A DNA stretch of 64,000 nucleotides from Terriglobia bacterium (GTDB lineage Bacteria; Acidobacteriota; Terriglobia; Terriglobales; Acidobacteriaceae), in assembly GCA_020072845.1 (NCBI GenBank), contig JAIQGF010000004.1:47957-111956 (forward strand), given 5' to 3'. Numbering within the stretch: position 1 is the first letter of the stretch; each line of letters opens with the position of its first letter. The notes below the pieces were generated by a model. It did not search any database and had not been told where the DNA came from. It was given only the letters and a program-made list of their open reading frames with translations. Below are positions 2,545 to 9,416 of this stretch, one piece after another. Made by a program: the position numbers and the translations under genes.

Positions 2545-2639
2545 TCGGCCGGTCCGCTCGCGTGCTGTGAGGCCCAACGCCGCACCGATGGCGTGTGCGG
2601 CCGAGTCACAGCGCGCGTTGATACGTTGCGAGGTGAACC

Positions 2640-3119
2640 ATGGGCGAAGTGGTCTATGTATCGAATGTGAAGATTGAGCGGAAGTCGGGGCCCTTGCGCG
2701 TGGCGGAACTCCCGGGCGAATCGCAGCCGGTCAGCTTCAGCGTGCACGGCGCCATTGCCAAGCACTATGGACTCGACCCCGCCCGGCTGAAGGAATCGCA
2801 TGCCGCGACCATCGACTACGTGGTCGCCGGGCTGGGCGGTTGAATGCTCGGCACATTTGCCGGTGCGCTGGATGCGCGCCAAATCGATGCCAAGCATGGC
2901 CGCCTGATTGCCGAAGTCAGGGGCGAAATCGAGGAGTCCGATGACAAAGTGCTGGTCATCCGCCGCGTGCACGTGCGCTTCCTGCTCAAGGCCGCCGAGG
3001 ACGTGCGTGACACCGTGGAGCGCGTGCACTCGGTTTACAAAGACAAGTGCCCGGTGTACCGCAGCCTGCGTCCGGCATTCGAGATCACATCCGCTTACGA
3101 ACTTGTGGCCGAAGCCTGA
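2640..3119 (+). CDS. OsmC-family peroxiredoxin-like selenoprotein (UGA = Sec68)
   Basis: OsmC/Ohr-fold proteins detoxify organic hydroperoxides using two redox cysteines. Here a 67-codon frame ends in GG-TGA and is followed in the same frame, with no gap, by a 91-codon frame starting MLGTFAGALD. Together they make one complete 159-residue OsmC protein. In the family the residue at this position is the conserved peroxidatic Cys (GGC followed by M/L), so the TGA replaces exactly the catalytic codon. The resolving Cys is kept in DKCPVY (residue 137). Both halves keep coding character, no frameshift is needed, and a SECIS-like hairpin lies just downstream. Sec decoding is therefore much more likely than a pseudogene. 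The start follows GCGAGGTGAACC. Confidence 0.85.
2855..2884 (+). promoter_or_regulatory. Bacterial SECIS-like hairpin of the OsmC gene
   Basis: GGTGCGC and GCGCGCC form a 7-bp stem (one G-U) closing the loop TGGAT. A flanking ATTT/AAAT pairing is separated from it by a GCC bulge. The loop begins 25 nt after the TGA at 2841-2843. Bacterial SECIS elements are known to place a small apical loop containing G roughly 16-37 nt after the UGA, so distance and shape fit. The hairpin is inside the coding sequence, as expected for SelB recognition. Confidence 0.7.
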
Positions 3120-7399: not shown

Positions 7400-8074
7400 T
7401 CAGGCCTTCATCCGGCCGGTGTAGATGGCCATGCCGACCACGGCATCCACCCGCATCGCGTCCAGCACATCCACTTCTTCCTGCGAACAAATGCCGCCGG
7501 CGACGATCAACTGGCGCGAGGTGGCGCGGCGCAATTCGCGTACCACGTCGAGCGGGATGCCCTGCATCAGCCCCTCGGTCTCGATGTGGGTGTACAGAAA
7601 CCCGCCGCAGTAAGGTTCCACTTCACGCAACATCGTGACCGGTGTCATGGCCGCGAGTTCACGCCACCCGTGCACCGCGACTTTGCCGCCCCGGGAATCG
7701 AGCGCCGCGATAACCCGGTCGGCGCCGACGGCTTGCGCCAGTTCCGCGGCGAACGCGGTGTTCACGTCGTTGCCCCGCACCAGGGCCGAGCCGACGATGA
7801 TCTTTCGCGCCCCGGCAGCCAGGGCCTCCTGCGCTGCTTCCACGCTGCGAATACCTCCGCCGACCTGGCATGGCAGGCGCGACGTGAACCGCGTCAGCAG
7901 ATCGCGGTTGCTGCCGGTTCCGATTGCCGCGTCCAGGTCGATCAACTGCACCATCGGATAGCCGGCGAAGCGCTCGATCCAGGCATCGAAATCGGAGAAC
8001 TCCAGCGCCTTCCGCTCTCCCTGGACCAACTGGACGATCTTCCCACCCATCAGGTCAATCGAAGGGATCAGCAC
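7400..8074 (-). CDS. hisA: ProFAR isomerase HisA
   Basis: Catalyses the Amadori isomerisation of ProFAR to PRFAR, the fourth step of histidine synthesis. The 224-residue TIM barrel has the first catalytic Asp in IPSIDLMGG, the second in AALDSRGG, the phosphate-binding loops VGGGIRS and VAGGICS, and the essential Thr in LYTHIETEG. The start is a GTG preceded by GGTGAGG at 5 bp, overlapping hisF by 7 bp; no ATG gives a correct N-terminus. The usual Asp after YT is His here, but the catalytic Asp-Asp-Thr set known from Thermotoga HisA is intact, so it should be active. Confidence 0.95.
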
Positions 8075-8832
8075 GGAAACCTCACCGGGATCGAGGCGGC
8101 TTGCAACTCCTGCTTGAGCTGGCGAATGTCGTGGATGCCAAAGTGGAAAATCGAGGCGGCTAAAGCGGCGTCGGCGCGGCCCGCCTGGAACACTTCGACA
8201 AAATGCGCCACGCACCCCGCTCCGCCGGAGGCGATCACCGGAATCGACACCGCCGATTCGATGCCAGCCGTGAGTTCGCAATCGAACCCGGCGCGCGTGC
8301 CGTCGCGGTCCATGGACGTGAGCAGGATCTCGCCCGCCCCGCGCTGTTCCGCCTCGCGCGCCCAATCCACCGCCGTGCGGTTGACCGGCGTCCGTCCGCC
8401 AGAGACATGGACCTGGTGATGGCCGTCACCGTGCGCCTTGGCATCGATGGCGACGACCACGGCTTGCGACCCGAACCGGCCGGCAATTTCCGTGATCAGC
8501 TCCGGCCGGCGCACGGCGGCGGAGTTGATGGCGATCTTGTCGGCGCCGGAATCGAACACGGCCGAGGCTTCGTCCAGCGAACCGATACCGCCGCCAACCG
8601 TAAAAGGAACGAACAGTTCGCGCGCCGTCCGGCGGACGGTTTCCAGCAGCGTGCCCCGGCGCTGGTGCGTGGCGGTGATGTCGAGCAGAACAATTTCATC
8701 CGCGCCCCCGGCGGCATGCGCGGCCGCCAACTCGGCCGGATCGCCGGCATCGCGCAGATCGAGAAACTGCGTGCCCTTCACCACGCGGCCGGCGTCCACG
8801 TCGAGGCATGCGATGATTCTCTTGGTCAGCAT
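8068..8832 (-). CDS. hisF: Imidazole glycerol phosphate synthase cyclase subunit HisF
   Basis: Uses ammonia from HisH to close the imidazole ring, giving IGP and AICAR. The 254-residue length is normal. The TIM-barrel landmarks are present: first catalytic Asp in IIACLDVD, second in VVAIDAK, and phosphate loops TVGGGI and IASGGAG. The canonical VVKGVNF appears as VVKGTQF. The gene overlaps hisH by 7 bp and hisA by 7 bp, consistent with translational coupling and stoichiometric HisH:HisF production. Confidence 0.97.
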
Positions 8833-9416
8833 TGCAGGAAGTTCCCCAGCAGCCGCAGTCCCGCTTCCGCCGATTTCTCCGGGTGGAACTGCACGCCGAA
8901 AATATTGTCCTGCTCGACGACCGCTGCAAACTCGCCGCCGTATTCGGTGCAGCCCACGGTGCCCTTGCCGGCTGGCGCGCGATACGAGTGCGTGTAGTAA
9001 ACGAAGAATTCGGCATCACTGCCCCGCAGCAAGCGTGAATCGGCCGCGCAACGCACCGTATTCCAGCCCACATGCGGCGCCTTCACACCCGCCGGAAAGC
9101 GCGCGCATGCGCCCGGAAAAGCTCCGAGACCGCAGACTCCAGGCGCTTCCTCGCTGCCCGCAAACAGCCATTGCATGCCGACGCAGATGCCCAGGAACGG
9201 CACGCCGCGGGCAATCGCGTCCTCGATGGCCCGGCGAACTCCCGACTCCGCCAGGACCGACGTGGCCGAAAAATTCCCGACTCCGGGCAACACCAGCCGC
9301 GAGGCGCGCGCCACCACCTCCGGATCGCTGGTGATCTCGGTCACACACCCGAGGTAGGCGAACGCTTTCTGCACCGATGCCAGATTGCCGGCCTTGTAAT
9401 CGATGATGGTTATCAC
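8826..9416 (-). CDS. hisH: Imidazole glycerol phosphate synthase glutaminase subunit HisH
   Basis: Class I glutamine amidotransferase that hydrolyses glutamine and channels ammonia to HisF. The 196-residue product begins [11 protein letters not shown], has the nucleophile elbow GICVGMQ (Cys near residue 79) and the catalytic His-Glu in [10 protein letters not shown]. The oxyanion region LPGVGNF is present. It overlaps hisB by an ATGA junction and hisF by 7 bp. Confidence 0.97.

Follow-up and report, generated by a model that had tools for sequence, protein, structure and literature searches.

Near the start of the 64,000-nt stretch of DNA analyzed here (the window), a reading frame opens at ATG 2640, meets an in-frame TGA at 2841–2843, continues in the same frame from ATG 2844, and closes at a second TGA, 3117–3119. 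Does the first TGA end a gene, mark the loss of one, or encode selenocysteine (Sec)? Read through, the frame comprises 67 codons from the ATG, the TGA, and then 91 codons plus the stop, and its product carries the motifs GG-U-MLGTF and DKCPVY. An earlier note on this DNA had joined the two abutting frames into a single complete OsmC protein. This proposal stands, as the 159-residue product matches the Pfam OsmC model (PF02566) over residues 58–150, across the TGA, at 45.9 bits against a cut-off of 27.5. On the comparative sequence evidence set out below, we are nearly certain that Sec would be inserted at residue 68 of an OsmC-fold protein. The parts of the locus are as follows.

2640..3119 (+): predicted selenoprotein gene of the OsmC family, coding for 159 residues and ending in a stop, UGA 2841–2843 read as Sec
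2628..2637 (+): possible ribosome-binding site GCGAGGTGAA, just 5′ of the ATG, as read from the sequence
2697..2699 (+): Arg20 codon, without variation across the 34 rows of alignment A2; may correspond to the catalytic Arg in Ohr
2841..2843 (+): predicted Sec68 codon UGA, at the position of the first redox Cys in OsmC proteins
2862..2880 (+): SECIS-type hairpin, stem of 7 bp, UGGAU as apical loop (2869–2873), −12.8 kcal/mol
3048..3050 (+): Cys137 codon (DKCPVY), probable resolving Cys, invariant in A2

The predicted protein and its possible role

Sequence comparison with solved structures yielded no match at E 0.1 for the single-protein query, and the profile returned matches of E 0.018 and weaker; the structural assignment is therefore carried by comparison of folds. 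An AlphaFold2 model of the read-through protein, built from the 34-row alignment, reached a mean pLDDT of 95.3, and its closest structural neighbors are OsmC, Ohr, and their relatives. These include 2onf (Thermoplasma Ta0195; Z 14.7, rmsd 2.4, 140 aligned residues, 16% identity), 1ml8 (Z 13.9, 18% identity), which we take to be E. coli YhfA, E. coli OsmC 1nye (Z 13.0, 12% identity), and Xylella Ohr 1zb9 (Z 12.4, 15% identity). In the model, Sec68 lies inside predicted helix 57–79 and Cys137 follows just after helix 120–136. As had been claimed, the TGA falls at the conserved redox-Cys codon, though in weak profile matches: residue 68 coincides with the first redox Cys in both 1ukk (E 0.02) and 1ml8 (E 0.18), and Cys137 also aligns with a Cys of 1ukk. 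The second Cys, also said to be kept, is present in the read-through product and invariant in A2. Four other OsmC-family matches in the same genome (L125–L127, L129) have TGT or TGC at the aligned codon. No PHROGs family matches the protein.

By analogy with characterized members of the superfamily, we infer that Sec68 would stand for the peroxidatic Cys of OsmC/Ohr proteins and would probably attack an organic or lipid hydroperoxide. Cys137 would then resolve Sec68 as a selenenylsulfide, to be reduced in turn by a dithiol, for example a lipoylated protein. The model for this cycle is Xylella Ohr, in which, according to the relevant passage of PMC5962072, Arg19 and Glu51 keep peroxidatic Cys61 in place; this Cys forms a disulfide with Cys125, and lipoylated proteins are the reductant. 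With the Ohr/OsmC hydroperoxide reductases (1zb9, 1nye) the protein has in common its predicted fold and the order of its two redox residues; it differs in that Sec would replace the peroxidatic Cys. Invariant in A2, whose 34 rows were hand-chosen, are Sec68, Cys137, and Arg20, and also His36, Asp59, and Glu99. Arg20 would be the equivalent of Arg19 in Xylella Ohr, whereas A2 contains no invariant Glu at the place expected for a counterpart of Glu51. Taken as an argument from analogy, this makes a hydroperoxide-reductase role somewhat more probable than not.

The main rival to hydroperoxide reduction is a YhfA-like or other thiol or selenol role, in which the protein would be a Sec-containing OsmC acting, for example, as a disulfide- or selenium-handling enzyme. 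We regard this as a serious possibility. Its case is that 2onf and 1ml8 are at least as near to the model as Ohr is, that no invariant Glu matches Glu51, and that no neighboring gene points to a pathway. Against it, the trio of Sec68, Cys137, and invariant Arg20 resembles the three residues of Ohr that comprise its peroxidatic and resolving Cys and its Arg. The two closest structures are Cys proteins in the alignment.

Across 98 stretches, the window included, we found no generally conserved neighbor gene; the widest neighbor cluster covers 10 of the 98 and does not include the window's stretch. Two genes of the window, for a multicopper oxidase and an APC permease, each recur in 4 stretches, again counting the window; two of these stretches, L017 and L049, are one sequence. 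A methionine sulfoxide reductase B gene (SelR domain) lies at 196–609 (−), ∼2 kb upstream of the OsmC gene, and a relative of it adjoins the gene in a same-genus genome (L018). Histidine biosynthesis genes occupy 7400–9416 (−), namely two His_biosynth proteins, presumably of HisA/HisF type, and a glutamine amidotransferase, presumably of HisH type. A mobile origin was considered and rejected, as there was no plasmid match and no relative in viral contigs.

Selenocysteine machinery and the downstream hairpin

The host genome (4.23 Mb, 27 contigs, 100% complete) contains all of the Sec machinery that the earlier note had proposed to search for. Its tRNA-Sec, with anticodon UCA, gives a full-length Rfam match at 66.8 bits and is also called by ARAGORN; a genome-wide tRNA-Sec search is weak evidence alone, since it matched in 14/14 controls, 5 of them above cut-off. 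SelA scores 563.7 bits, SelB 364.7 bits, and SelD 352 bits when its parts are joined. These Sec genes sit on different contigs. SelD (L045, G000:C11:217393-218031) has its own in-frame TGA in a GUASK motif and is predicted to be a selenoprotein itself, which would bring the genome to at least two UGA-Sec genes. By gene content, then, the cell would be able to make selenocysteine.

The gene also keeps company with SelA in other genomes. In the family sample, where 22 of 200 genomes have a match to the gene, SelA was above cut-off in all 22 of these but in only 95 of the 178 others (p 3.6e-6). In Gemmatimonadota, SelA at E 0.001 was found in 89/91 genomes with the gene and 137/207 without it (p 5e-11); both values come from Fisher tests that ignore kinship. 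In the Acidobacteriota sample, SelA scored above cut-off in 28 of the 31 genomes that carry a strong match. Five gene-bearing genomes of the two phylum samples in which SelA is absent or fragmentary (G491, G488, G273, G715, and G779) were examined further, and SelB was above cut-off in G488 and G715. The other three, G491, G273, and G779, possess the gene with neither SelA nor SelB above cut-off, which counts against the Sec reading. An incomplete assembly is a likely cause for G273, which is 75% complete and has part of SelA, scoring 59 bits, at the edge of a contig, and a less likely one for G491, which is 93% complete. The gene of G491 (L087) keeps both the UGA and the hairpin, yet SelA and SelB are not above cut-off there.

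Established bacterial Sec biology suggests how the codon would be read. With the ribosome at UGA 2841, the downstream hairpin would bind SelB with Sec-tRNA, and Sec would be inserted at UGA 2841 instead of termination. A bacterial SECIS model, as laid out in the pertinent section of PMC13188914, calls for a loop of 3–9 nt with a G within its first two positions, a stem of 4–16 bp, a distance of 16–37 nt from the UGA, and an MFE of −7.5 or lower. The window hairpin falls within these bounds (loop 5 nt, stem 7 bp, 25 nt, −12.8 kcal/mol). The earlier note had described a 7-bp stem with a G-containing 5-nt loop lying 25 nt after the UGA. Stem and loop (UGGAU) are confirmed; the stem itself starts 18 nt after the UGA, and 25 nt is the distance to the apical loop. 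Hairpins fitting the model follow the UGA in 112/115 loci, as against 718/10623 control codons. The remaining loci, L146, L147, and L148, retain the UGA with no hairpin that fits.

The fold energy of the window hairpin is unremarkable relative to dinucleotide shuffles (z −1.35), and so the case for it rests on comparison among relatives. The loci up to L104 supply 66 distinct downstream stretches, in which 419 of the 462 stem pairs are formed, compared with 290 ± 9 in synonymous-codon shuffles (maximum of 1000: 316), and the hairpin's offset gives the highest z (15.7) among 47 offsets tested. The excess persists in 46 representatives, with 292/322 pairs against 201 ± 7 in synonymous shuffles. 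A wider covariation set of 81 rows at <85% identity, 66 of them distinct, contains 18 cells changed on both stem sides across the distinct rows, versus 3.5 in shuffles. Two further covariation measures, both-side-changed pairs (46/500) and further pair types (283/500), were not clearly above shuffles. When the stem partner is slid, every score drops except further pair types, which one slide equals. The outermost pair is formed in 27 of the 66 distinct rows, and the shared stem is thus 6 bp. Individual exceptions exist: L085 forms only 3/7 pairs at the common place, and two loci of one genus, L097 and L099 (G289, G250), show no pairing there, require another hairpin, and have a downstream fold that looks shifted toward the UGA.

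Compensatory stem changes cross amino-acid changes. Among the 81 representatives, the paired stem codons are Ala/Ala GCG/GCG in 58, Ala/Val GCA/GTG in 16, and Val/Ala GTG/GCA in 2. In this respect the stem is a clear example of amino-acid and codon changes being steered by RNA structure.

These data also bear on whether the UGA might be decoded as an ordinary amino acid, by a near-cognate tRNA or through codon reassignment. The three gene-bearing genomes without SelA or SelB above cut-off would fit such decoding. We nonetheless consider it very improbable, as the gene itself and many of its relatives end in TGA, so that UGA is also a stop; tRNA-Sec, SelA, SelB, and SelD are all encoded in the host genome; SelA co-occurs with the gene; and the hairpin fits SECIS.

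Conservation of the UGA and of the protein around it

Comparison with relatives shows that the UGA is no chance occurrence. Of 129 loci examined at this codon, 115 have TGA, corresponding to 98 distinct genes (L016 and L128 being the window's own gene), and UGA occupies the codon in 98/99 distinct clade genes in which it can be read. The 14 non-TGA loci are of several kinds. L037, L041, and L076 have an N gap at the codon and are one sequence as far as read; L042 and L043, from G059, are one fragment that stops short of the codon; L125–L127 and L129 are the ordinary Cys OsmC proteins of the host genome mentioned above; and L142–L145 are weak Gemmatimonadota matches. That leaves L040 (G086:C278), which has TCA at the codon, loses its frame after residue 80, and is the sole readable clade gene without the UGA. 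Its genome, G086, holds an intact Sec copy (L034) besides this frame-broken second copy.

Around the codon, GT follows at +3/+4 in 98/98 distinct Sec genes, and of the 96 long enough to reach the second Cys, 95 have its CP motif and one has X. A TAG occurs near the end of the aligned part in 2/98 (L081, L094). The clade extends over Acidobacteriota and Gemmatimonadota, with identity to the window protein down to 33% in the 34 rows of A2. In a sample of 298 genomes of Gemmatimonadota, the phylum of G566, 91 contain strong matches, and all 36 loci fetched from the phylum (L105–L124, L130–L141, L146–L149) have UGA at the codon. At least two matches occur in 53 of the 91 genomes, a few of these being pieces of one gene; the pairs typically comprise one match of ∼200 bits to the profile and one of ∼100 bits, and Gemmatimonadota genomes often appear with two Sec-OsmC paralogues. 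One locus, L066, lies on a contig titled Acidimicrobiia (VFZL01000021.1); its genome, G569, shares the place and score of SelA with G418 of Acidobacteriota, and the title looks misnamed.

Selection acts on both sides of the codon. In comparisons of the window gene with three same-genus relatives, at dS of 0.76–1.36, dN/dS is 0.021–0.056 upstream of the UGA and 0.076–0.150 downstream. The downstream range is favored by the placement of a one-codon gap in the window gene for fewest amino-acid changes, and the ranges leave out L023, whose downstream figures are high, probably because of an unaligned one-residue gap. Judged by these substitution rates, the part 3′ of the UGA evolves as protein. 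Decay in close relatives, which the earlier note had raised as a possible objection, is not what we see: in relatives of the same genus the UGA is retained, and the sequence before and after it is under purifying selection.

In a split gene, a first protein would stop at UGA 2841 and a second would restart at the abutting ATG 2844 by termination-reinitiation. In favor of this, an ATG directly follows the UGA both here and in 47/98 distinct Sec-type homologues. The next codon is CTN in the other 51, however, with CTA, CTC, or CTT, which are unusual starts, in 22. Neither half alone matches any NCBIfam OsmC model, and both the Pfam match and predicted helix 57–79 cross the junction. Restart at ATG 2844 was rejected on the CTN codons, and we attach negligible probability to it. 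A nonsense mutation in a pseudogene, or a Cys codon misread in sequencing, is just as far-fetched and was likewise rejected: TGA is one base from both TGC and TGT, and decayed copies do exist (the frame-broken L040 of G086, which has TCA, and the L042/L043 fragments in G059), but purifying selection acts on both sides of the UGA, the hairpin is conserved, and UGA holds the same codon in 98/99 distinct clade genes of two phyla and in so many separate assemblies that error is very unlikely.

A subfamily apparently without cysteine forms

The earlier note had described Sec as taking the place of the catalytic Cys in this one gene. The Sec half of this description is supported. What the searches did not bear out is an isolated Cys-to-Sec swap: they showed the gene to be one of a clade and brought up no intact Cys member of it. 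From 396 Acidobacteriota genomes, a profile search returned 43 matches: 32 at ≥75 bits, every one TGA-flagged and with TGA at the codon in 30/30 of those fetched; one partial match lying beyond the codon (G270); and ten weak ones (≤28 bits) without TGA, which were left unread. In the 298 Gemmatimonadota genomes there were 150 matches, of which 144 are TGA-flagged, with 36/36 fetched reading TGA; the remainder comprises two partials that end before the codon and four weak matches. Three of these four are ordinary Cys OsmC proteins (L142, L143, L145), and L144 looks unrelated. The flag alone is no proof, as L142 and L143 were flagged yet have TGC at the codon. A peptide-pattern scan based on the window protein, covering one genome from each of 84,980 species, found 28 loci, 27 with TGA and one with an N gap (L076). 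Thus, neither the profile in 396 + 298 genomes of two phyla nor peptide patterns in 84,980 species revealed an intact Cys form.

In a tree of 43 Sec rows (<70% identity) and 7 Cys rows, a branch (96/93) separates all the Sec members sampled from the Cys rows. The order of the outgroup is unsafe, given long Cys branches and unsettled bootstrap. One conceivable history, which we advance tentatively, is a Sec-only OsmC branch with a single origin that spread in Acidobacteriota and Gemmatimonadota, diverged to about one-third identity, and did not at any point revert to a functional Cys form. From this lack of reversion it would follow that the chemistry of the branch may need selenium. According to PMC12013277 (2025), Cys homologues now seem to exist for every known selenoprotein, although PMC1794560 (2006) recognizes a few families with very few or no such homologues.

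OsmC-like selenoproteins are not new as a class. As the earlier note stated, they were known from metagenomes: the Sargasso Sea survey of 2005 (PMC1088965) predicts one with motif UxxT, the family is also tabulated in the relevant portions of PMC2398784, PMC9312934, and PMC13188914, and the part of a 2026 review that concerns it counts OsmC-like as one predicted selenoprotein family. The present clade resembles the Sargasso proteins in belonging to the OsmC family (COG1765/PF02566) and in having Sec predicted with a bacterial SECIS. It is set apart by motif, at least as the motif is printed in PMC1088965: UxxT there, U-x-x-G-T in 98/98 distinct Sec genes here. The Sargasso set also apparently includes Cys forms, if its table row of 3, 10, 0, 17 in the same source is taken as 3 Sec and 10 Cys forms, whereas no intact Cys form was seen in the present clade. 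NCBI already has a model for a Sec-capable group of the same superfamily, NF041052 (OsmC_like_Se, "OsmC-related (seleno)protein"). The window protein scores 20.2 bits against it, below the cut-off of 95. Weak matches to it came from 12 of the 15 members of alignment A1 (best E 1.2e-5; row 1 of A1 has one extra residue from the terminal TGA) and from 8/8 distant members (17.4 to 28.7 bits against the same cut-off of 95). By the UxxGT motif and by scores far under the NF041052 cut-off, the clade is a separate subfamily of the known OsmC-like selenoproteins. The open-licence PMC literature yielded no earlier report of an OsmC selenoprotein in Acidobacteria, and a report elsewhere is possible; PMC12013277 lists 3 known selenoprotein genes for one isolate of Acidobacteriota.

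The subfamily spans two phyla and is uncaptured by the current NCBI naming model, with the possible result that its genes are often recorded as split or disrupted. A subfamily that has no Cys partners would also escape prediction methods that demand Cys homologues. If Cys forms are truly absent, the branch would be a natural test of why evolution keeps Sec, with a Sec68Cys enzyme as the direct comparison.
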